A DNA stretch of 23,180 bases from a virus: positions 1 through 23,180 of the IMG/VR virus record IMGVR_UViG_3300031857_001453. The stretch is one strand, 5' to 3'. The notes below the pieces were generated by a model. The model had not been told where the DNA came from, did not search any database, and saw only the letters and a list, made by a program, of their open reading frames with translations. Below, piece after piece: positions 4,633-23,180 of the stretch (position 1 is the first letter of the stretch; the number at the start of each line of letters is the position of its first letter). The position numbers were made by a program, and so were the translations under genes.

Positions 4633-5409
4633 ATGGGAAAAGTAGATCTAGATGCGCTTCGTAAGAAGCATGAAGCCCTTCAGTCAGGTAAGACGGGCGG
4701 TGGCGGTCAGGACTTCCTCAAGAACTTTGTTCAGCTAGAGGAAGGTACAACAACTCTTCGCATTCTTCCCCCTAAGGGCGAGAACGATCCTTTGTTCTAT
4801 GCGGAGACTAAGATTCACCGCATCGGAGAGGGTGAGAATGTAAAGAACTTCCATTGCCGTAAGGTACACAATGAAAAGTGTCCTCTCTGTGATGCCTACT
4901 ATAAGTTGTGGGATTACAGCAAGAAGACTGGCAAGGATGGCAAGGATCAGTATGCGACTCTCGCTCGCTTGATCAAGCCTCGTGAACGCTACTACTTGAA
5001 TGTAGCTGTCCGTCCTGCTAACGAGGTCAAGATTCTTTCAATCGGTCAGATCGTCTTTAAGAAGATCTTGAATACGATGATGGATCCTGACTACGGTGAT
5101 ATCACCGACTTGAAGACTGGATACGATTTCAAGATCGTAAAGGAAATGGACGGCGGGTTCCCGAAGTACGACCAATCTAGCCCTCGTCCCAAGTCATCTC
5201 CAGCAGGAACAGGTCAGGAGATCGCTGCCTTCATGGAATCACTCCATGATATTCACGCACTAGTCAAGTTGGAAGACTTTGAAGAAATGCGTAAGAGCGC
5301 AGACATCCTGCTTGCTGAGATTGGTATTGCTTCACTCTCACCCAGAGTTGTGTCTTCTCCAGCAGAAGGTAACGATGACGGTGATTATTTATCAAAACTA
5401 AAAGGATGA
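4633..5409 (+). CDS. Single-stranded DNA-binding protein, T4 gp32-like
   Basis: A 258-residue protein with the gp32 plan. It has a basic N-terminus for cooperativity, then a core starting around LRILPP (42-47) with a compact zinc-type cluster His74, Cys75, His79, Cys83 and Cys86 (motif HNEKCPLCDAYYK). The end is acidic (EGNDDGDYL), like the gp32 tail that binds partner proteins. It would coat ssDNA during replication and recombination and work with the helicase and RecA-like recombinase here. Ribosome binding site GGAG lies about 10 nt before the ATG. It sits in the replication operon right after the possible recombination mediator. Confidence 0.85.
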   Translation: MGKVDLDALRKKHEALQSGKTGGGGQDFLKNFVQLEEGTTTLRILPPKGENDPLFYAETKIHRIGEGENVKNFHCRKVHNEKCPLCDAYYKLWDYSKKTGKDGKDQYATLARLIKPRERYYLNVAVRPANEVKILSIGQIVFKKILNTMMDPDYGDITDLKTGYDFKIVKEMDGGFPKYDQSSPRPKSSPAGTGQEIAAFMESLHDIHALVKLEDFEEMRKSADILLAEIGIASLSPRVVSSPAEGNDDGDYLSKLKG

Positions 5410-5411
5410 TT

Positions 5412-6035
5412 ATGATTAAAAACTTTATACTAGGTGTGGTACTTTCGCTAGGTTTAGCTTCCTGTCCCGGATTTACATTCGGAGGGGGCAACACCGAGGA
5501 TCCTGTAGCACCTCTAGTTATCACAGAGACAAGTAATGTTACGCCCGAATCACTAGAGAGTAAACAATCTGTAGTGATTCCTATTGAGACTCTTGGTGGT
5601 GATGTAGGTGATGCCCTTAAGCTCGAATTTGAGAAGCGTGGTACTCAACCTGTAATCACTACAAAGGATCATCTCAAGGATACCCCGGGCGCAATGGTTG
5701 TAACCTTGGATGCAAACGCAACGCAAGAAATTCTATCCCCGAGTGTGGTTAGTTTGATTGCAAATGTGTTTGGGTCTACGATTCCGGGATCAGCACCATG
5801 GATGCAGCTACTTGTTGTGGTTCTACCCTTCCTGTCTAGTAGATTCCGCAAACACACCGTTACAGCAGCCAAGCGTGTAATTCCCGGTGTTGAAGGGCCT
5901 AACCATGATGGTAAGATTCCCAACTTGGATGACTTGCGTGAAGCTCTCATTGACTTGAGCAAGGCTGTCACACTAGCTCCCAAGGAATCTGGTGATGTGA
6001 TTACTCAACAAAAATCACAGCAAATCAACGGCTAA
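5412..6035 (+). CDS. Predicted lipoprotein of unknown function
   Basis: A 207-residue protein with an N-terminal signal: Lys3, a hydrophobic run and LASC at 15-18, a lipobox with Cys18 as the predicted lipidation site. A second hydrophobic stretch (SAPWMQLLVVVLPFLSS, roughly residues 124-140) could be a membrane segment, followed by basic residues (RFRKH). The rest is not recognised. The ATG at 5412 is chosen over 5406 because AAAGGA at 5401-5406 is then correctly spaced. It is the last gene before an intrinsic terminator. A lipoprotein in a replication operon could be an outer-spanin, superinfection-exclusion or envelope protein; nothing decides between these. Confidence 0.62.
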   Translation: MIKNFILGVVLSLGLASCPGFTFGGGNTEDPVAPLVITETSNVTPESLESKQSVVIPIETLGGDVGDALKLEFEKRGTQPVITTKDHLKDTPGAMVVTLDANATQEILSPSVVSLIANVFGSTIPGSAPWMQLLVVVLPFLSSRFRKHTVTAAKRVIPGVEGPNHDGKIPNLDDLREALIDLSKAVTLAPKESGDVITQQKSQQING

Positions 6036-6050
6036 TTTAAGTTAGAAAGA

Positions 6051-6063
6051 CTATTATGGATGA
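6051..6063 (+). promoter_or_regulatory. Candidate -10-type promoter, CTATTATGGATGA
   Basis: TATTAT at 6052-6057 within a 13-mer that recurs, with small changes, at 12746, 14427 and 17819. No convincing -35 is seen. A start 7-8 nt downstream would fall inside the terminator hairpin and give a leader of about 26 nt to the glycosyltransferase gene. Confidence 0.4.
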
Positions 6064-6090
6064 GAGGCTAATACCCTCTCATCTTTTTTT
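6059..6090 (+). terminator. Intrinsic terminator
   Basis: A perfect 9-bp stem, GATGAGAGG (6059-6067) with CCTCTCATC (6075-6083), a 7-nt loop and seven T residues (6084-6090). It ends the replication operon. The next start codon begins at 6091, directly after the T tract. Confidence 0.88.
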
Positions 6091-7344
6091 ATGCACAAAG
6101 AAATACTTAACGATACATATTCAATTGATTTTTGGAAATCACAACAAGGATTTCCGGGGCTAAACAGACCACTACGAATCGCTGTGGCACTACCAAACAA
6201 AGGTGGTTGTGCTTATTACCGTGCGATAGTTCCATATGCCAAATTAGCACAGCTATACCCAAATGTAGTTGAAGTTAGATTTACTGAAAACATATTGGGA
6301 TTGAATGAGGAAGCTGCCAAGAAGGGTGTGTTCTCTTGGATTACTGATTGGCAGTGGGATGATATGGATTGGTCTGATGTCGTGATGACCAACAACATAT
6401 CCAACTATGGTGGGCAGTATACTGCTCGCATATGTGGCAAGGCAAAAGAACGGGGCAAGGTATTCCATTATGACACGGATGACTTGCTTACTCAGTTGTA
6501 TAAGGGGCACAGACTAGAATCCGTTTATGAAAACGGATTGTCCGATCTTACTAAGTTTATATACAACAATAGTGATATTGTTACAGTTACTCAGCGTAAG
6601 TTCCAAGATAGAATTAAAGAGTATATGGGTAGTGGCATCTTGGCTGTAGTCAAGAATGCTATTGATTACACTTTACCCTGTTGGAATTCTCCAAGATCTG
6701 TAGTGCCAAAAGACAGATTTGTTAGAGTTGGCTGGGCAGGAGGCATTCACCATGAGGAGGATGTCAAAGAGTTCGCGGGAGTTCCTAATCTCGTTAACCA
6801 AAGAGCAGGAAAAGAAAAAGTTCGTTGGGACTTTTATGGTAAGCCTCCAGTAGACCCAAACACAGGCCCTGATTGGCAACAAGATGTATGGAAGAACTAC
6901 GAGCGTATAATCATGATGGGTCTAAAGGGTAGTCGCAACTACACTATCAATCCTGCTATGCCTACAGACCAATATGGTGTAATGTATAGCCATATGGAGA
7001 TGGCTATAGCACCTTTGCAGATGAACGAATTTAACGACTCCAAGTCTGAGATCAAGGTTGCAGAGGCAGGCAGATATTGTGTTCCCCTGATTGCATCTAA
7101 TGTTGGGTGCTATGATGAAACTATAATAAATGGTAAGACAGGATTCTTAATTCCTCACGATGCTCCAAAGAGTGAGTGGGTATCTACACTGGCTAAGGTG
7201 ATCAAGGATCGTGATCTACGAATTGAAATGGGTAAAAACCTAAATCAAGTCACTGAACAGTACTTTGATCTTAACAAGGTCGTACACCATAGACTAACCA
7301 TGTACAAGAAATTTTATGACTGGAAAAACTCAACCAAAATTTAG
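6091..7344 (+). CDS. Glycosyltransferase, GT4/GT-B-like
   Basis: A 417-residue GT-B-type transferase that would move a sugar from a nucleotide-sugar donor to an unknown acceptor. The N-terminal half opens with RIAVALPNKGGCAYYR (29-44), a Rossmann-type strand and loop. The C-terminal half has DSKSEIKVAEAG (316-327) followed by PLIASNVGCYDE and NGKTGFLIP, the donor-binding pattern of GT4 enzymes with the E-x7-E spacing (Glu318 region is Lys; Glu320 and Glu325 are visible). The start codon directly follows a terminator T tract and has no Shine-Dalgarno sequence; no alternative in-frame ATG lies close by. It is first in the accessory cassette and overlaps the next gene by 29 nt. Confidence 0.82.
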   Translation: MHKEILNDTYSIDFWKSQQGFPGLNRPLRIAVALPNKGGCAYYRAIVPYAKLAQLYPNVVEVRFTENILGLNEEAAKKGVFSWITDWQWDDMDWSDVVMTNNISNYGGQYTARICGKAKERGKVFHYDTDDLLTQLYKGHRLESVYENGLSDLTKFIYNNSDIVTVTQRKFQDRIKEYMGSGILAVVKNAIDYTLPCWNSPRSVVPKDRFVRVGWAGGIHHEEDVKEFAGVPNLVNQRAGKEKVRWDFYGKPPVDPNTGPDWQQDVWKNYERIIMMGLKGSRNYTINPAMPTDQYGVMYSHMEMAIAPLQMNEFNDSKSEIKVAEAGRYCVPLIASNVGCYDETIINGKTGFLIPHDAPKSEWVSTLAKVIKDRDLRIEMGKNLNQVTEQYFDLNKVVHHRLTMYKKFYDWKNSTKI

Positions 7345-7963
7345 TATTATAGTACCTCACTACGATAAGTCTATATCAGATGAATCGTTTATTCAAGGTA
7401 TGACTAGTTTAAAAAATCAAACTTTTAAAGATTTTGAGGTTTTATTATATCATGACGGTCCAACAAGCCGACGAATTCCTGATATAAATATAACCAATCT
7501 AAAAATAAAGATAACTGAAAAAAGATACAACAACTGGGGGCACTCTCTTCGTGACATGGGTATTCGAGAAGCATCTGGAGATTATATAATTCACTTTAAT
7601 CCAGATAACATCTTGTATCCATACGCACTACAAATTATTCACGAAAAAACGGAAGAGGTGATTCCATTTCAGCCAACTAATGAGATTGTAATCTTTCCTA
7701 TTTTGATGAAAGGAATGCAATGCAATGGTAAGGTTGTATGGAGAGAAAAGCAAAATGCAGATCATAAAGACATGATTTTTACAGGTTACCCAACCATAAA
7801 GTATAATATTGACTGCATGCAGTTAGTTATGAAAAAAAGCACTTGGTTGTATCATAATGGATGGTCTGATAAAACAGAGGAATCTGATGGTAATATGTAT
7901 CCTTTGTTTGTTAGAATGTATGGGGCACGGTATTGTAGCAAAATTTTAGGAGAACACAAATGA
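7316..7963 (+). CDS. Glycosyltransferase, GT2-like (GT-A fold)
   Basis: A 215-residue protein with FSIIVPHYDK at the N-terminus, SLKNQTFKDFEVLLYHDG (31-48) and HFNPDN (93-98), a layout typical of GT2 family transferases in which the last motif replaces the usual metal-binding DxD. It is shorter than many GT2 enzymes, and the C-terminal acceptor region is reduced. Substrate unknown. From here to 12290 the DNA becomes clearly more AT-rich than the replication genes, suggesting separate origin. It overlaps the upstream gene by 29 nt and the downstream one by 4 nt. Confidence 0.75.
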   Translation: MTGKTQPKFSIIVPHYDKSISDESFIQGMTSLKNQTFKDFEVLLYHDGPTSRRIPDINITNLKIKITEKRYNNWGHSLRDMGIREASGDYIIHFNPDNILYPYALQIIHEKTEEVIPFQPTNEIVIFPILMKGMQCNGKVVWREKQNADHKDMIFTGYPTIKYNIDCMQLVMKKSTWLYHNGWSDKTEESDGNMYPLFVRMYGARYCSKILGEHK

Positions 7964-9276
7964 AATCATTACATGAAATAGGTATGGCTTGCAACACAGA
8001 TAAAGCGTATGATCATAATTTTTGTAATTTTTATGATTATCATCTATCTTCTCTACGAGATCAGCCTTTGAAAATACTAGAAATAGGGATATGGAAAGGA
8101 GAATCTCTACGAATGTGGAAAGAGTATTTTCCTAATGCAAAAATACATGCAATAGATATAAACCCAGCATTCTTATTTCAAGAAGATAGAATCAGTACTT
8201 ATTTAGTTGATCAAGGAAATATAGAGCAACTAACTAAATTTAAGAATGAGCATGGTCCATTTGACATTGTAATTGATGATGGATCTCACTTTACTTACCA
8301 TCAATTTATTAGCTATTCTCTATTTAGTGAAACCCTCATATTTATTTGGGAGGATTTACATACATCTAGAATGCCACATTACCTGACTGCAAAAAACTCT
8401 ACTGATGAATACCCTCTTGATGTAGCGAAAAGATTGTGTGCATCGGAACCTAACTGCTATCTGTTTGATAGAGATGGTGATGAAGCACATGTTACTTTTA
8501 TAAAAATTAATAACACTAATCTAAAAAAAACATATAGTGATACAGCAGTTTTAATGTCAACATATAATCGAGTTGATTTAACTAAAAAAACAATTGACAA
8601 TATTTGTAATTCCGCAGGGACAGATTTTGATTTATACTTGATTGATGATAATTCATCGGATGAGACTAAAAATTATTTATCATCATTACAACCTTTTAAT
8701 TTTTGTAAGTCCATAAATATTAAGTATAATACAGAAAATTTAGGGAAGGCAAAAAATCTTAACTACTGGCTTAAGCATGTGTACAATTTAGATTACTCCC
8801 ATTATTGTGTAATGGATAATGATGTGCTTCTTCCAAAAAATTGGTTAGTTAAAACAACAAGTACCGTAAAAAATAATAGTGAAGTTGGCATCTGTTCAGT
8901 CCTAGTAGAAACTGATCTAATTACTAAGTATAAAGATAGGTTTGTTTTTACATCCAAGTACATAGATTCTAACTTAATGGGCGGTCCTTGTATGGTTTGG
9001 GGGACAGATGTAAAAGATAAAATAGGTTTATTCTGTGAAGATTATGGAAAATATGGTCATGAAGATGCAGACTTCACTTTTAGATGTCAATTACTAGGAA
9101 AAAAGACGGTGTATATACATGATTTTGGGGAACACACGGGGGAAGACAATACACCAGAAATGCATAAAACCATATATAGAATAGAAAAAACAAAACTTTT
9201 TGAAAGTTCTAAGGGCCTATTATTTGATAACATCTTTAAGTACAATAATGGAATAAAGTCAATTTTAATAAAATAA
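7960..9276 (+). CDS. Fusion of SAM-type methyltransferase-like domain and GT2 glycosyltransferase
   Basis: A 438-residue two-domain protein. Residues 1-183 resemble a class I SAM methyltransferase of the sugar O-methyltransferase/cephalosporin hydroxylase-like group: ILEIGIWKGES (39-49) as motif I, HAIDIN (63-68) as the acidic second strand and IDDGSH (105-110). Residues 194-400 form a GT2 domain: VLMSTYNR (197-204), LIDDNSSD (227-234), MDNDV with DND (286-288) as metal site, and GHEDADF (366-372) as the acceptor/catalytic motif. A single protein could add a sugar and methylate the same glycan; this coupling is inferred. The start overlaps the preceding stop in ATGA and follows a good AGGAG. 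Confidence 0.78.
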   Translation: MKSLHEIGMACNTDKAYDHNFCNFYDYHLSSLRDQPLKILEIGIWKGESLRMWKEYFPNAKIHAIDINPAFLFQEDRISTYLVDQGNIEQLTKFKNEHGPFDIVIDDGSHFTYHQFISYSLFSETLIFIWEDLHTSRMPHYLTAKNSTDEYPLDVAKRLCASEPNCYLFDRDGDEAHVTFIKINNTNLKKTYSDTAVLMSTYNRVDLTKKTIDNICNSAGTDFDLYLIDDNSSDETKNYLSSLQPFNFCKSINIKYNTENLGKAKNLNYWLKHVYNLDYSHYCVMDNDVLLPKNWLVKTTSTVKNNSEVGICSVLVETDLITKYKDRFVFTSKYIDSNLMGGPCMVWGTDVKDKIGLFCEDYGKYGHEDADFTFRCQLLGKKTVYIHDFGEHTGEDNTPEMHKTIYRIEKTKLFESSKGLLFDNIFKYNNGIKSILIK

Positions 9277-9282
9277 AAAATC

Positions 9283-10389
9283 ATGAGTAATCCTTATAAT
9301 CCACATAAAATAGTTCATCATCAAGACAAGATAAATGAGATGCGCTCTGGGGGTCAACCAGTTCCTCTTCAGGTTCAATTAATTATATCTGATTTGTGTA
9401 ATCATAATTGTTCATTCTGTGCATACAGAATGGAAAATTACACATCTAATCAGTTGTTTGGGGAAAAAGATGCAGAGACTGGCATGATAAACAATAACCC
9501 CAATAGAATGATTCCATTTTCTAAATGTATGGAAATTTTAGATGATTGTAGTAAGATGGGAGTCAAAGCTATCCAGTACACTGGGGGAGGTGAACCAACA
9601 GTCCATCCGAAGCACAAGGAACTATTTCAAAAAACTATTGATCTAGGTTTGGATTTAGCTCTTGTAACTAATGGAACTAGAATGCTTGATGGAGTTCCTG
9701 AAATCTTGGCTCAAGGTTCTTGGGTAAGGTTTTCTATGGATGCTGCTACAAAAGAGACATACTCGGCCATTAGAGAAGTCCCCATCCATTACTTCGATAA
9801 AGCAATTGAGAACATTAAAAAAGTAGTCTCTGCCAAAAAAAATAATCCCAATAGTAAACTTATAATTGGTGTGGGTTTTGTTGTAACAAAAGAAAACCAC
9901 AAAGAGATTTATGATGCAGTAAAACTTTTTTCATCTCTTGGAGTAGACAATGTACGCATAAGCGCAGTGTTCACCCCTGATGATTTTGAATACCATAGAG
10001 AAATCTATCCAGTTGCACGAGAACTTGCTGTTAAAGCAAAACAAGATTTTAGTACTAACAAGTTTACTGTCTTTAATTTGTTTGGTGATCGTGTTCAAGA
10101 TCTAATTGATGAACGGCCTGAATACGAGTATTGTGGGTATATGCATCTAAACACTTACATTGGTGGAGATCAAAATGTATACACTTGCTGTAACAATGCC
10201 TACAATAAATTAGGATTGATGGGGTCTATCAAAAATCAATCGTTCAAAGATTTTTGGTTTTCTGATGAGAAAGTCAAGAATTACTTAAAGTTTAAAGCAT
10301 CTTCGTGTGAAAGATGTATGTTTAATAATAAAAATAGATTCATAAATTATATGTTAGAAAAAAACCCATTACATGTGAACTTTATATGA
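9283..10389 (+). CDS. Radical SAM protein with SPASM/twitch-like C-terminus
   Basis: A 368-residue protein with DLCNHNCSFCAY, giving the CX3CX2C cluster ligands Cys39, Cys43 and Cys46. GGGEP (101-105) is the SAM-binding motif of the radical SAM TIM barrel. The C-terminus has Cys284, Cys302/303 and the Cys342-x2-Cys345 pair around GGDQNVYTCC, resembling a SPASM or shortened twitch domain with an auxiliary cluster. Family members modify peptides, sugars or other small substrates by radical chemistry; the substrate here is unknown. Placed among glycosyltransferases and methyltransferases, a sugar substrate is the simplest guess. It starts 6 nt after the previous gene and overlaps the next by 4 nt. 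Confidence 0.82.
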   Translation: MSNPYNPHKIVHHQDKINEMRSGGQPVPLQVQLIISDLCNHNCSFCAYRMENYTSNQLFGEKDAETGMINNNPNRMIPFSKCMEILDDCSKMGVKAIQYTGGGEPTVHPKHKELFQKTIDLGLDLALVTNGTRMLDGVPEILAQGSWVRFSMDAATKETYSAIREVPIHYFDKAIENIKKVVSAKKNNPNSKLIIGVGFVVTKENHKEIYDAVKLFSSLGVDNVRISAVFTPDDFEYHREIYPVARELAVKAKQDFSTNKFTVFNLFGDRVQDLIDERPEYEYCGYMHLNTYIGGDQNVYTCCNNAYNKLGLMGSIKNQSFKDFWFSDEKVKNYLKFKASSCERCMFNNKNRFINYMLEKNPLHVNFI

Positions 10390-10952
10390 TAAATTATTTA
10401 ATTAATAAGGCGTTATACGGTGAGGGAGATAGTGATCAACATTTATTAGTGTTATTTTCATTAGTTGTAGCGTCTCGATCAAAAAATATTTTAGAATTAG
10501 GTGTAAGAAATGGCGACAGTACTATGCCATTATTAATGGGAGCCAAGGCTACTGGAGGCATTTTAAACTCTGTTGATATAACTAATACAACATTTTCTCC
10601 AAATGAAGATTACAAATCACATTGGAATTTTCATCAAATGAACGCTATAGATTATTTAAAATCTGTAAATCAAAAATTAGATTTCGTTTTTATTGATGAT
10701 TGGCACGATGGTCTTCATGTTTTTAATGAAATCAATTTAATTGAACCTTGGGCTACAAAAGAAACAATTATTGTTTTGCATGATACTATGCATACTTTTA
10801 GACATCCTAACTACAATAATGATCCCGGGGATCCTGTTTATTTTAGTAATTATGGTCCTTATGGAGCTTTGTTAAAATTAGATAGACAAAAATGGGAATA
10901 TGCCACATTACCGTATAATCACGGATTAACCTTACTCAGAAAATATGAATGA
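10386..10952 (+). CDS. Class I SAM-dependent methyltransferase (Methyltransf_24-like)
   Basis: A 188-residue protein with ILELGVRNGDS (35-45) as SAM-binding motif I, SVDI (62-65) as the acidic end of the second strand, VFIDDWHDG (101-109), which matches the FIDGdH-type motif of this group, and VLHDT (130-134). This pattern is typical of small sugar or natural-product O-methyltransferases such as CmcI/Methyltransf_24 relatives. Acceptor unknown; the neighbouring glycosyltransferases suggest a glycan. Starts in ATGA overlap with the radical SAM gene and overlaps the next gene by 8 nt. Confidence 0.72.
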   Translation: MINYLINKALYGEGDSDQHLLVLFSLVVASRSKNILELGVRNGDSTMPLLMGAKATGGILNSVDITNTTFSPNEDYKSHWNFHQMNAIDYLKSVNQKLDFVFIDDWHDGLHVFNEINLIEPWATKETIIVLHDTMHTFRHPNYNNDPGDPVYFSNYGPYGALLKLDRQKWEYATLPYNHGLTLLRKYE

Positions 10953-11559
10953 TAAAATATCAAGAACAGTTGATTCTGTTTTCTGGGATGCTAAACATCA
11001 AGAAAGTAGTAATTTTTGGCTAACAGGATCTGATTTAGAAGAAATAAAACGATGGCACTCTATTAGCGATTCTTTATTAAGAGAAAAAGATGTTTTAGAA
11101 ATTGGTGTTGGTCTTGGTAACTGTACAGCAGAATTGTCACAAATAGCAAAAAATCTTTATGCTAGTGATATATCTGAAGTTGCACTAACCAAAATAAATC
11201 ATCTTGTAAAAAAGACTATTAATACAAAACAATTAAAATCATTGCCATCAGTGGATGTTGCTATAGCACATTTAGTATTTCAACATAATACGAATGAAGA
11301 AATTTGTAGAATTATAAATGATGTTAATTTAAAACGAGACACAGGTATATTTTTTTTCCAATTTGCAGAATATCCTAATCCAATTTCTGATCCAATAAAT
11401 AGTTTTATAGAGCAAAAAAACCATTTTTTTAGGTCTAGATTAGAAATTGAGGATATTGTACAAAAAACTAATAAAAAAATAATAAATATTAGTTCTCCAC
11501 ATTATTTTGGTCATCCTTGGTATTTAAATTGGTATTTTGTTCAAGTTAATCAACCATGA
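10945..11559 (+). CDS. Class I SAM-dependent methyltransferase
   Basis: A 204-residue protein with VLEIGVGLGNCT (50-61) as motif I and an acidic ASDIS segment as motif II. VDVAIAHLVFQH follows at the position of motif IV/post-motif, similar to Methyltransf_11/25 enzymes. It is short and has a quite divergent C-terminal half. Acceptor unknown. It differs from the preceding methyltransferase in motif pattern, so the two are not recent duplicates. Overlaps both neighbours by a few nt, consistent with one AT-rich operon. Confidence 0.65.
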   Translation: MNDKISRTVDSVFWDAKHQESSNFWLTGSDLEEIKRWHSISDSLLREKDVLEIGVGLGNCTAELSQIAKNLYASDISEVALTKINHLVKKTINTKQLKSLPSVDVAIAHLVFQHNTNEEICRIINDVNLKRDTGIFFFQFAEYPNPISDPINSFIEQKNHFFRSRLEIEDIVQKTNKKIINISSPHYFGHPWYLNWYFVQVNQP

Positions 11560-12290
11560 GCAATAAAATTTCAATTGTAATGGCTCACTACAATAGATTC
11601 CCTCTATTATACAATACATTATGTAGTATATACAAAAAACATGGGCACAACGACATTCAGACAGTTGTAGTTGATGATGGGTCTACACTATTAGAGGGTA
11701 AGGAAAAAATATTTGAATTTCCCATAACTTATGTGCAGTTACCTCAAAATAAATGGTATGTAAACCCATCTATCCCTTACAATGTAGGAATAGAATATTC
11801 AGAAAATGATATTGTAATAATTCAAAATCCTGAGTGTTACCATTTTGATGATGTTATATCTCATACATTATCAAACTTAAATGATAGTGACTACTTTGCA
11901 TATTCTTGTTACTCCTTACCAGAGAAAAAATCTTGTTATGATATAAAAACTGCACAAGATTTTCAACAGAGATCAGCGCATCATGACGGTGATGACGGTT
12001 GGTACGCGCACAGTAAATATAGACCAGTACACTATCACTTTTGTGCCTCTACAAAAAGAAGCAATTTAAAAAAGATAGATAATTTTTCTAGGGAATACGC
12101 ATACGGGATTGGATATGATGATAATGACCTTGTTTATAAATTAACTAAAGCTAAGTTAAATTTAAAATTAATTGATAATGTGTCTGTTTTACACCAATTT
12201 CACTATTTTGGAAATAAAACATCGGCACAGAGGGAAGAACTTTGTCGAAAAAATGAAAATATCTATTTTAACAAAATCAGGGGCCTATAG
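11556..12290 (+). CDS. Glycosyltransferase, GT2-like (GT-A fold)
   Basis: A 244-residue protein with ISIVMAHYNR (5-14), VVVDDGST (37-44), and NPEC (91-94) at the place of the DxD metal motif. GYDDND (186-191) resembles the ED-type motif of GT2 enzymes, and a WHxF-like segment (LHQFHYF) follows. Domain order is that of galactosyltransferase-type GT2 proteins. It is the last gene of the accessory cassette and is followed by a strong terminator. Its start overlaps the previous gene stop in ATGA. Substrate unknown. Confidence 0.75.
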   Translation: MSNKISIVMAHYNRFPLLYNTLCSIYKKHGHNDIQTVVVDDGSTLLEGKEKIFEFPITYVQLPQNKWYVNPSIPYNVGIEYSENDIVIIQNPECYHFDDVISHTLSNLNDSDYFAYSCYSLPEKKSCYDIKTAQDFQQRSAHHDGDDGWYAHSKYRPVHYHFCASTKRSNLKKIDNFSREYAYGIGYDDNDLVYKLTKAKLNLKLIDNVSVLHQFHYFGNKTSAQREELCRKNENIYFNKIRGL

Positions 12291-12339
12291 TGATCTATAT
12301 AACTTTGGGACCGTCATAGTTCAACCCTGAATAGGGTAG

Positions 12340-12380
12340 GGTAGGAAGAGGGGGATCGTGCGCTCTTCCTACCTTTTTTT
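12340..12380 (+). terminator. Intrinsic terminator ending the glycan cassette
   Basis: An 11-bp perfect stem, GGTAGGAAGAG (12340-12350) with CTCTTCCTACC (12363-12373), a 12-nt loop and seven T residues (12374-12380). Confidence 0.92.
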
Positions 12381-12405: not shown

Positions 12406-12726
12406 ATGAACTTTAATCAATACCAACAAGAAGCTAAGAAGTTTGCAATTTACAGAGATCGAATCCTTTACCCCACTCTTGGCCTAGCATCAGAGGCAGG
12501 AGAGGTTTGTGGGAAAGTCAAGAAGGTAATGAGGGATTCGCAAGGATTCTTTTCCCCTGAAGATAAAGAAAAGATTAGATCGGAGCTAGGTGATGTACTT
12601 TGGTATGTTGCAGCTATCTGCTCAGATCTAGACCTAGACATGACTACAGTAGCTTCAGACAACATCATAAAGCTACAGGACAGGATGAGCCGTAATAAAA
12701 TCCAAGGGTCTGGGGATAATCGTTGA
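12406..12726 (+). CDS. MazG-like nucleotide pyrophosphohydrolase
   Basis: A 106-residue all-alpha NTP pyrophosphatase-type protein. LASEAGEVCGKV carries Glu30 and Glu33, and SELGDVLWYV carries Glu60 and Asp63; together they form the ExxE...ExxD magnesium site of the MazG/dUTPase-like superfamily. The length fits single-domain phage MazG-like enzymes, which hydrolyse NTPs or dNTPs, or lower (p)ppGpp in some hypotheses. The gene follows the terminator of the glycan cassette and opens the recombination/nucleotide gene group. No Shine-Dalgarno sequence is visible before the ATG. Confidence 0.82.
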   Translation: MNFNQYQQEAKKFAIYRDRILYPTLGLASEAGEVCGKVKKVMRDSQGFFSPEDKEKIRSELGDVLWYVAAICSDLDLDMTTVASDNIIKLQDRMSRNKIQGSGDNR

Positions 12727-21444: not shown

Positions 21445-21897
21445 ATGAGCAAGCAATGCCGAGTCTACTGGAACTTCCACAAGAAGTGTTGGTCTGTTCA
21501 AACCAAGACTGACAAGGGTTGGCGTGTTACGAGCCATAAGGAACATTTGTTACTTAAGAACCCTAAGTTCAAAGTATCCGAGAGTGGTCGTAACAAAGTT
21601 CTTTCTGAGCGTAGGAAGAATGTTCATGCTTTCATCTATGGTAATCTTGTAGATGATAATTCAATTGCTTGTAAGTTTCGCGGTAATGTTAACTACAATC
21701 CCTACAAGCACTTAGAATTTATGCTAGAGAATGATGGTAACTGTAATCCCATCAACTCGCATCCTGAGTATGTTTCAAACTCAGGTTATGTCTTCTTTGC
21801 AGTAATTGCAAAGCTAGTTTTAACGCAAGTGTCTGACAATAAAGCAAAAGCTAACTATAACTCTATCAATGTTCCCAAAGTTATTTGGGCTAACTAA
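21445..21897 (+). CDS. Protein of unknown function
   Basis: A 150-residue basic protein whose N-terminal half (VYWNFHKKCWSVQTK, GWRVTSH, ESGRNKV, RRKNVHAFIYG) follows a pattern seen in unannotated phage proteins. The RKNVHAF stretch is the best marker. The C-terminal half is Asn-rich. No catalytic residues recognised. Transcribed alone from its own promoter; the next promoter begins 16 nt after its stop. Confidence 0.62.
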   Translation: MSKQCRVYWNFHKKCWSVQTKTDKGWRVTSHKEHLLLKNPKFKVSESGRNKVLSERRKNVHAFIYGNLVDDNSIACKFRGNVNYNPYKHLEFMLENDGNCNPINSHPEYVSNSGYVFFAVIAKLVLTQVSDNKAKANYNSINVPKVIWAN

Positions 21898-21912
21898 TTT
21901 CTCAAAAAACCC

Positions 21913-21941
21913 GTGACCAAATCCTGCTGATCGGTTATAAT
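21913..21941 (+). promoter_or_regulatory. GTGACC-N17-TATAAT promoter
   Basis: GTGACC (21913-21918) and a perfect TATAAT (21936-21941) are separated by 17 nt. ATG at 21949 lies 7 nt after the -10. The stretch 21927-21952, including the ATG, is repeated exactly at 23056-23081. Confidence 0.85.
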
Positions 21942-21948
21942 ACCTACC

Positions 21949-22239
21949 ATGAGACTCTCACAACTGATCCGTGATCTAACCGTCCTAGAACAACAAGTTG
22001 GCGGCACTTACGATGTTAAGTTGCGCGTCGATGATAACAATGGCTTCGGCCATGAAATGACTAATTTCTGGATCGAACAACGAGTCAATGATATTGCCCT
22101 TGTTGCCGATACTGCTGAACTTATCTACGAAGACGAAGATACCCAAGACTCGCCTAGGATCATTCAGGTAGCAACCAAGACAATCCAAAACGGCAGGGTT
22201 TGGAATGGTGATGAAATCAAATCGGAACCTCACCAATGA
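21949..22239 (+). CDS. Small protein of unknown function
   Basis: A 96-residue acidic protein. The N-terminal LIRDLTVLEQQVGGTYDVKLRVDDN resembles the start of small phage proteins with a helix followed by a strand and turn. It has no known function. First gene of a three-gene coupled unit: its stop overlaps the next ATG (ATGA). No Shine-Dalgarno sequence; leaderless start predicted. Confidence 0.6.
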   Translation: MRLSQLIRDLTVLEQQVGGTYDVKLRVDDNNGFGHEMTNFWIEQRVNDIALVADTAELIYEDEDTQDSPRIIQVATKTIQNGRVWNGDEIKSEPHQ

Positions 22240-22433
22240 ATAATAAAGCAACATATATCCTGCTTGATTCTGGTTTGGAAGATACTTGGACTAAGTGTCC
22301 TATCTGTAACCAAACAGAATCTTGGAATGGAGAATTTCGTAGAAGTTTCGATACCTCTGCCGACTTCTTCGGTTATGTAGAAGACTTCTACAACAACGAA
22401 CACCCCTGTGCTTTTATCGAGTGCCACAAATGA
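22236..22433 (+). CDS. Small Cys-containing protein of unknown function
   Basis: A 65-residue protein with CPICNQ at residues 21-26 and two more Cys near the end (CAFIEC). A four-Cys zinc site is possible but spacing is wide. Acidic and aromatic otherwise. Start and stop codons both overlap neighbours in ATGA, so translation likely depends on coupling within the unit driven from 21913. Confidence 0.58.
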   Translation: MNNKATYILLDSGLEDTWTKCPICNQTESWNGEFRRSFDTSADFFGYVEDFYNNEHPCAFIECHK

Positions 22434-22684
22434 GTAACAACGAAACAACCTTCTCCCTCAACTACTCCCAAGTTTGGAATCACGGCTGGGAGGAAGGCGT
22501 GCGATACGCTGAAGTATCTAGGAAACTAGAGATCGCTGAATTGGAACTTAAGCTGAAGGAAACTGAAGAGAAACTTAATTATTTCCATGGTAGGTATGTA
22601 GAGGTTGCTGATCTCTGCAATCTTCGTTCTATCGAGATCGAAAACTTAAAGAAGCAGTTAAATAAATTCCCAAAAAACCCGTGA
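22430..22684 (+). CDS. Small coiled-coil protein of unknown function
   Basis: An 84-residue protein. Residues 26-50 (EVSRKLEIAELELKLKETEEKL) and 66-78 form a Leu/Glu/Lys heptad pattern typical of a coiled coil, so it may oligomerise. The ATG at 22430 is chosen over GTG at 22421 because it overlaps the upstream stop codon in ATGA. Its stop lies just inside the next promoter region. Confidence 0.58.
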   Translation: MSNNETTFSLNYSQVWNHGWEEGVRYAEVSRKLEIAELELKLKETEEKLNYFHGRYVEVADLCNLRSIEIENLKKQLNKFPKNP

Positions 22685-22709
22685 CTATCACCCGCTGATC
22701 GGTTATACT
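22681..22709 (+). promoter_or_regulatory. GTGACT-N17-TATACT promoter
   Basis: GTGACT (22681-22686) and TATACT (22704-22709) are separated by 17 nt ending GATCGGT. ATG at 22717 lies 7 nt after the -10. An A tract precedes the -35, which begins at the last codon of the upstream gene. Confidence 0.85.
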
Positions 22710-22716
22710 AAGCATC

Positions 22717-23022
22717 ATGAAGACCGCAACCTACAACAAGCCCTTGTCCGAGTCCACTATCCTGCAACTGGAAGCACAGCGTGATCATCTGATCAATACT
22801 AAAGAGGATAACTATCTTCTTAATCATATCAATAAAGTTCTTACTACTCCTACGGTAGGTGCATTGTCCGAAGAGTGGGCAGTCCGTGATTATCTAAATG
22901 ATATGGTAATCTCTCTCAAGGAGGAAGCTCAGAATCTGAATCACAGCCCTGAGACTCGTGAAGATTTTATCCGAGATGCCAAGAACATGAAAAAAGATCT
23001 AGAGTACGGCAGCAGAGGTTAA
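22717..23022 (+). CDS. Small protein of unknown function
   Basis: A 101-residue helical, charged protein (LSESTILQLEAQRDHLINTKEDNYLLNHI..., EEWAVRDYLNDMVISLKEEA). No motif recognised. Single-gene unit with its own leaderless-type promoter and another such promoter directly after it. Confidence 0.6.
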   Translation: MKTATYNKPLSESTILQLEAQRDHLINTKEDNYLLNHINKVLTTPTVGALSEEWAVRDYLNDMVISLKEEAQNLNHSPETREDFIRDAKNMKKDLEYGSRG

Positions 23023-23041
23023 ATAAATTCTCAAAAACCTC

Positions 23042-23070
23042 GTGACTGTCCCTTCCTGATCGGTTATAAT
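23042..23070 (+). promoter_or_regulatory. GTGACT-N17-TATAAT promoter
   Basis: GTGACT (23042-23047) and TATAAT (23065-23070) are separated by 17 nt. ATG at 23078 lies 7 nt after the -10, identical to the promoter at 21913 from CTGATCGGT through ATGA. Confidence 0.85.
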
Positions 23071-23077
23071 ACCTACC

Positions 23078-23180
23078 ATGAACGACAAAGCAACAAACCT
23101 ACTGATTGATCTCATGTCGGAAAAGATGCAAAGCAAGGATAAGGAGATCGCAGAGATGCGTATTATGCTGCGTAAGCAGA
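23078..23180 (+). CDS. Small protein, 5' part only
   Basis: The frame is open from the ATG at 23078 to the window edge (34 codons: MNDKATNLLIDLMSEKMQ...). The visible part is a charged helix with Met- and Lys-rich heptads, possibly coiled coil. It belongs to the same promoter-gene cassettes as its upstream neighbours. Function cannot be assigned from this fragment. Confidence 0.55.
   Translation, partial: MNDKATNLLIDLMSEKMQSKDKEIAEMRIMLRKQ

Follow-up and report, generated by a model that had tools for sequence, protein, structure and literature searches.

The window analyzed here, which is the entire 23,180 bases of IMG/VR record IMGVR_UViG_3300031857_001453 (a linear fragment), almost certainly carries a fixed cassette-exchange locus that, based on genome comparison, belongs to a family of uncultured tailed phages whose replication and structural genes are T4-like. 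The locus is flanked on the left by a conserved GT4-family glycosyltransferase gene (hereafter GT4) and on the right by a noncoding terminator element before mazG; between these flanks, blocks of ~0 to >10 kb of glycan-tailoring genes have been replaced whole and reshuffled between phages. We regard as evenly balanced the fuller statement that such a locus exists and that its enzymes glycosylate a soluble acceptor, a phage virion protein being the likeliest one. The features of the window are as follows:

4633..5409, + strand: gp32-type ssDNA-binding protein gene (Pfam gp32, E 9.7e-20), syntenic in relatives; left backbone landmark
5406..6035, + strand: predicted lipoprotein (N-terminal signal segment ending LGLASC); backbone, usual gene upstream of GT4
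6058..6084, + strand: hairpin and T-run directly 5' of the GT4 ATG; backbone feature kept in relatives
6091..7344, + strand: GT4-family glycosyltransferase, core gene and exchange-site anchor; its last codons form the left breakpoint
7316..7963, + strand: cassette gene 1, GT2-family glycosyltransferase (PF00535, E 1.5e-10), with 43-51% relatives in other cassettes
7960..9276, + strand: cassette gene 2, methyltransferase-GT2 fusion (PF00535, E 2.3e-16; phrog_21658, E 3.5e-26)
9283..10389, + strand: cassette gene 3, radical SAM/SPASM protein (PF04055, E 4.7e-19; PF13186)
10386..10952, + strand: cassette gene 4, Methyltransf_24-type methyltransferase (PF13578, E 3.1e-13)
10945..11559, + strand: cassette gene 5, Methyltransf_11/25-type methyltransferase (PF08241 above the curated cut-off)
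11556..12290, + strand: cassette gene 6, GT2-family glycosyltransferase (PF00535, E 5.4e-10), with a 79% relative in locus L030
12296..12380, + strand: right-boundary element, ~85 noncoding bases with a strong terminator at the end (scan hairpin 12349-12370)
12406..12726, + strand: mazG-type pyrophosphatase (phrog_229, E 1.1e-34; synteny), where the backbone resumes right of the slot

A sequence-only reading of the window had described GT4 and the six genes after it as one AT-rich island bounded by terminators. All seven open reading frames lie where that reading placed them, and profile searches recovered the assigned domains: a GT4/Glyco_trans_1_4 protein, three GT2 proteins (one fused to a methyltransferase), a radical SAM protein with a SPASM domain, and two methyltransferases. 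The genes had been called overlapping, which holds at five of the six junctions; the sixth is a 6-base gap (9276/9283). AT-richness from about position 7316 was also borne out, as the six genes there have a GC content of 27-34% and GC3 values of 0.11-0.28, and every other measured gene of the window has a GC3 of ≥0.34. The cassette as a whole has 31.3% GC versus 41.6% for the rest of the window; it is the lowest-GC stretch of its length, and elsewhere equal-length stretches never fall below 39.9%.

Comparison with a near-identical phage genome, G001 (99,866 bases), revealed replacement of the whole block. The two sequences share 97.6% nucleotide identity up to position 7333 and 97.8% from position 12296; between these points, their cassettes have no homology to each other. 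The G001 slot holds eight genes unrelated to the window's cassette. Three encode GT2-like proteins (one matching only weakly), two encode methyltransferases, one encodes a DUF5672 protein, and one weakly matches polysaccharide deacetylase; the remaining gene, without a Pfam match, possibly encodes a GT9-like protein, judging from its motif. The left breakpoint falls within the last codons of GT4, and the right breakpoint lies at ~12291-12296, at most 6 bases past the stop codon that closes the window's cassette. In both alleles, the gene that follows GT4 starts within its 3' end, so coupling to GT4 has been kept across the swap.

The same left break, in the last codons of GT4, was found in two further pairs of genomes. 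Loci L184 and L185 have flanks with 99.8% identity, and each 100-base block of the kilobase before the break is 99-100% identical, whereas loci L013 and L126 have flanks with 95.8% identity. Three independent pairs of near-identical genomes therefore hold non-homologous content at one fixed site. An assembly chimera is unlikely, as the arrangement of the window occurs in other contigs (L005 and L029/L121), the swapped genes recur elsewhere, and all three pairs share one left breakpoint; this assessment was made on contigs rather than reads. No integrase, transposase, or HNH gene was identified in the window's cassette or among the top insert families, and we rejected carriage of the cassette by a site-specific mobile element on this basis. 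Replacement would proceed by homologous recombination in GT4 and in the right-hand element or neighboring genes.

We gathered relatives using gp32, radical SAM protein, uvsX, and GT4 queries. GT4 is present in the relatives whose contigs cover the gp32-to-uvsX stretch, where its position is immediately 3' of gp32 and, in the majority of loci, of the predicted lipoprotein (additional genes intervene in loci L030 and L025). Because it is syntenic after gp32 in these relatives, with 82-84% identity in close relatives and 47-64% in distant ones, we consider GT4 a backbone gene; gene content downstream of it is not conserved among relatives. The base composition of GT4 is also backbone-like (GC 0.41, GC3 0.39), and its GC3 and its synteny in the relatives examined rule out all seven genes as a single mobile unit. 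GT4 is thus a core gene rather than the island member that it had been taken for; the earlier reading had set a vertically inherited core of seven genes as the alternative to its island, and the genes divide between the two, one being core and six exchangeable. The proposed bounding terminators (hairpins 6058-6084 and 12349-12370) likewise proved to be part of the phage backbone.

The left flank is conserved in noncoding sequence as well. The hairpin at 6058-6084 abuts the GT4 start codon, is conserved in relatives with compensatory changes, and is preceded by a conserved GACTATWATGG motif. The lipoprotein upstream has one predicted hydrophobic segment, at residue 1. On the right, the ~85-base element is near-identical in the window, G001, L126, G004, and G005, and its fold has a z of -3.2. 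A search for the 21-base core of this element identified only five IMG/VR contigs, all from this clade and all with the core at this position. Rfam analysis matched only tRNAs, and no known RNA family was identified at the boundary element.

GT4 matched PF00534/PF13692 above the cut-off, and its predicted model (mean pLDDT 86) is that of a GT-B enzyme, with a GT-B fold and a Glycos_transf_1 domain. Fold comparison identified BshA, sucrose-phosphate synthase, HepE, and PglA as the nearest solved folds, with Z scores of ~29 to BshA and sucrose-phosphate synthase and 26 to PglA; the modeled structure does not fix a substrate. No DNA glycosyltransferase was among the fold matches listed, which is not evidence of absence.

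GT4 relatives are encoded by at least 541 IMG/VR stretches. We analyzed 86 loci, some from the same record, which have the same gene order with variable inserts; slot length ranges from 0.19 kb (L035, nearly empty) to >10 kb. Clustering of the 502 insert proteins at 40% identity gave 244 clusters, of which 136 are singletons. Among 144 representatives, the commonest Pfam families are GT2, NDP-sugar epimerases/dehydratases, methyltransferases (including FkbM), radical SAM, DegT aminotransferases, B12-binding, TPP enzymes, GT10, and GT11. The sequence-only reading was correct that the cassette itself holds no nucleotide-sugar or polymerase gene; because NDP-sugar epimerases/dehydratases are among the insert families of relatives, nucleotide-sugar synthesis is encoded by those relatives and not by the cassette in the window. 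The same slot often does hold nucleotide-sugar genes in relatives.

The very fast gene turnover evident in the 136 singleton clusters would suit a passenger island, or one for general auxiliary metabolism, that has no target of its own, whether genome filler or a source of soluble glycan or metabolite products, and "stuffer DNA" was raised by Sullivan et al. for cyanophage LPS clusters (PMC3037559). However, the inserts are mostly intact, lie on the same strand, are tightly packed, belong to one functional class, and always follow the same core glycosyltransferase; a passenger island appears improbable.

Third-codon-position identities indicate that individual genes have moved between phages. 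Between the window and L030, this identity is 36-40% for core genes but 69% for the radical SAM gene and 70% for the GT2 gene designated GT2b. Among L002, L012, and L021, core genes have 43-60% third-position identity, and several cassette genes have 89-99%; other genes of the same cassettes have only 53-76%, and because of this difference we consider these cassettes mosaic. Gene variants have thus recombined between lineages, with shared genes in new combinations. Other phages of the family have a radical SAM gene with ~70% identity, in many cases directly 5' of mazG or uvsX. Together with allelic replacement in near-identical phages, the third-position identities strongly support the earlier proposal of a horizontally acquired glycan-modification cassette. 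As for a bacterial donor, one scan of genome contigs was empty, and another identified only distant radical SAM relatives, the best of which (42%) is from Candidatus Laterigemmans; these two scans yielded no donor. No close isolate phage was identified, as core genes all align to those of isolates with <60% identity, and ribosome-binding-site usage was uninformative on the host.

The radical SAM/SPASM protein has an intact CxxxCxxC motif (C39, C43, C46) and SPASM cysteines, and its cysteines are conserved in relatives. Its predicted model (pLDDT 81) and profile are nearest to BlsE, DesII, MoaA, SkfB, and SuiB, which represent sugar-nucleotide and peptide chemistry alike; neither model nor profile fixes a substrate. 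None of the listed NCBIfam radical SAM equivalog models (BlsE, MoaA, PqqE, and others) reached its cut-off, the best score being 91.5 bits to TIGR04317 (cut-off 380). The earlier suggestion that radical SAM chemistry points to a new pathway was not upheld: radical SAM genes recur beside glycosyltransferase genes in phages and have also been described from pelagimyophage islands (PMC7029224). The methyltransferase half of the fusion protein has relatives with 25-35% identity in mycobacteriophages, and in those of the McProf type, these relatives adjoin a glycosyltransferase gene.

Three targets had been proposed for the enzymes, namely phage DNA, host surface glycan, and virion proteins. Phage DNA is disfavored, and the other two remain candidates. 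In a DNA hypermodification scenario, GT4 and the cassette would glycosylate modified bases of phage DNA and elaborate the glycans as a defense against restriction; phage glycosyltransferases able to glycosylate DNA have been described (Pyle 2024, as cited in PMC12619734), and the neighbors of the locus include gp32, mazG, a dCMP-deaminase-like gene, and uvsX. Such a system requires a modified base, for which a hydroxymethylated pyrimidine would have to come from a hydroxymethylase or from a C5-methyltransferase together with TET. However, PF00303 (thymidylate synthase/hydroxymethylase), PF00145 (C5-methyltransferase), PF01702 (TGT/DpdA), and above-cut-off PF06508 (QueC) were all absent from seven GT4-bearing contigs of 99-131 kb, the completeness of which is unproven. 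An unrelated phage matched PF00303 in the same search, and the positive control of a TET search was silent. We consider DNA modification very improbable.

In a host-surface scenario, the enzymes would alter LPS, O-antigen, or capsule against superinfection, using host lipid carriers and transporters, and different cassettes would suit different surface types. The same reading has been given to the glycosyltransferase-rich pelagimyophage islands (PMC7029224), and cyanophages carry LPS gene clusters (PMC3037559). Some slot variants carry nucleotide-sugar, fucosyltransferase-type, and DegT aminotransferase genes typical of surface polysaccharides, a predicted lipoprotein is the usual upstream neighbor, and a position among replication genes would fit early expression. 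Flippases, polymerases, initiating transferases, and Gtr-type membrane proteins are typical of O-antigen conversion modules. However, none of these was identified among the 502 insert proteins, and none of the 502 has two or more predicted membrane segments based on a simple hydropathy scan (many inserts end at contig ends); as controls, the E. coli O16 flippase and polymerase gave nine and six segments, respectively. The hydropathy result speaks against a self-contained O-antigen conversion module, whether of GtrABC type or a cluster with an integral membrane flippase, polymerase, or transferase. A lack of membrane proteins would also be expected if the enzymes used a host lipid carrier and flippase. 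Host-surface remodeling is the main rival reading, possible albeit doubtful.

We place a virion-protein target first because of the membrane-segment result, the absent DNA-modification families, and the mycobacteriophage parallels described below, and we infer the link from these enzymes to a virion protein. GT4 would prime or extend a sugar on a soluble acceptor in the cytoplasm, for which a phage structural protein is the likeliest candidate; glycosyltransferases of the cassette would then lengthen the glycan, and the methyltransferases and the radical SAM enzyme would decorate its sugars. A cassette swap would then yield a new virion glycotype. Two observations weigh against a virion target: the genes around the locus serve replication rather than the virion, and the nearest solved folds of GT4 act on small molecules or lipid-linked glycans.

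Arrays of O-methyltransferase and glycosyltransferase genes are reported to glycosylate the mycobacteriophage capsid and tail tube (Freeman 2023, as cited in PMC11600133 and PMC12363180). Judged by gene content against PMC11600133, the cassette resembles these arrays in having phage glycosyltransferase genes beside a methyltransferase gene, the methyltransferase substrates being putative. The mycobacteriophage arrays are short, whereas the locus described here is a multi-gene exchange locus. To our knowledge, there is no exchange locus for the mycobacteriophage arrays, and virion glycosylation enzymes have been proven in mycobacteriophages Che8 and Corndog. Bacterial O-antigen and flagellin-glycosylation loci have conserved flanks around exchangeable blocks of glycosyltransferase and tailoring genes. 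The phage-borne locus shares this layout and differs from O-antigen clusters in lacking a polymerase or flippase; its proposed mode of action would resemble that of bacterial flagellin-glycosylation islands and the mycobacteriophage capsid/tail-tube arrays.

Several elements of the locus are already known from other phages, including glycan/radical SAM islands in pelagimyophages, LPS clusters in cyanophages, and interchangeable phage islands. The pelagimyophage host recognition cluster resembles the present locus in being a hypervariable, glycosyltransferase-rich island with radical SAM cassettes in marine T4-like phages (PMC7029224); however, that cluster lies in the structural region with tail fibers, and its divergence was described as gradual, whereas the present locus lies between gp32-lipoprotein-GT4 and mazG/uvsX, contains no tail fibers, and undergoes whole-block replacement. 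Cyanophage LPS clusters (PMC3037559; SynMITS9220M01) also combine glycosyltransferases, a methyltransferase, and a radical SAM relative, but they sit elsewhere (near hli03, phoH, and tRNAs), and heptose genes are part of the SynMITS9220M01 region; the portions of these sources that bear on the clusters describe no conserved anchor glycosyltransferase, which is present here. Metaviromic/metagenomic islands similarly pair a stable core with interchangeable modules that recombination shuffles (PMC7468147), but these were mostly described as short flexible regions and gene variants, whereas here whole multi-gene glycan cassettes follow one anchor gene. New here are the anchoring of the locus by a conserved core glycosyltransferase, replacement that is complete rather than gradual, and a defined right-boundary element. 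We found no earlier description of this locus in the literature searched, most subscription papers being outside that scope.

Block replacement in this family is resolved to the base level in near-identical genomes, with a conserved anchor enzyme and right boundary. Glycan-coat switching by phages, and the choice between virion and host targets, thereby become directly testable, as phage pairs differing only in the cassette would isolate the cassette's effect. The cassettes also represent a rich source of soluble glycosyltransferases and tailoring enzymes, among them a radical SAM/SPASM subfamily scoring under the cut-off of every listed NCBIfam model. More tentatively, and with somewhat less than even confidence, we propose that an abundant uncultured phage family may possess its own glycotype locus, in which a universal anchor glycosyltransferase and a docking site swap whole glycan pathways, radical SAM sugar chemistry included, to re-coat the virion. 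If true, this glycotype locus would represent a viral equivalent of serotype switching.

Between gp32 and GT4, the conserved backbone glycosyltransferase gene, lie:

window 5406-6035, predicted lipoprotein gene
window 6047-6093, GT4 5' leader or terminator (GACTATWATGG motif, hairpin and T-run)
L030:5959-7711 (locus in phage contig G002), two NAD-epimerase-like genes

The G002 gene pair suggests that insertions also occur at a second site, to the left of GT4. Most relatives have a recognisable counterpart of the predicted lipoprotein, which may act like a spanin or in superinfection exclusion. The hairpin before GT4 shows compensatory changes, and no obvious Shine-Dalgarno sequence was identified ahead of the GT4 ATG in window 6047-6093; this region is an unusual 5' leader or terminator, kept in relatives. 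The T-run stops exactly at the ATG.

Across the diverged phages compared, the noncoding right-boundary element (window 12296-12380) is more conserved than its adjoining coding flanks, and it folds better than shuffled sequences (z -3.2). Short direct repeats occur in window 21888-23100, several times in common with the near-identical contig G001.

A small protein (GELVDRLSIxNxK...) recurs across phage glycan islands, in these stretches:

L099:7640-8002
L103:7646-8002
L105:3355-3630
L107:13277-13528

In Candidatus Laterigemmans (L089:7974-9806), a radical SAM relative (42%) is followed by a GT2-like gene; this pair is the closest bacterial counterpart among those found.
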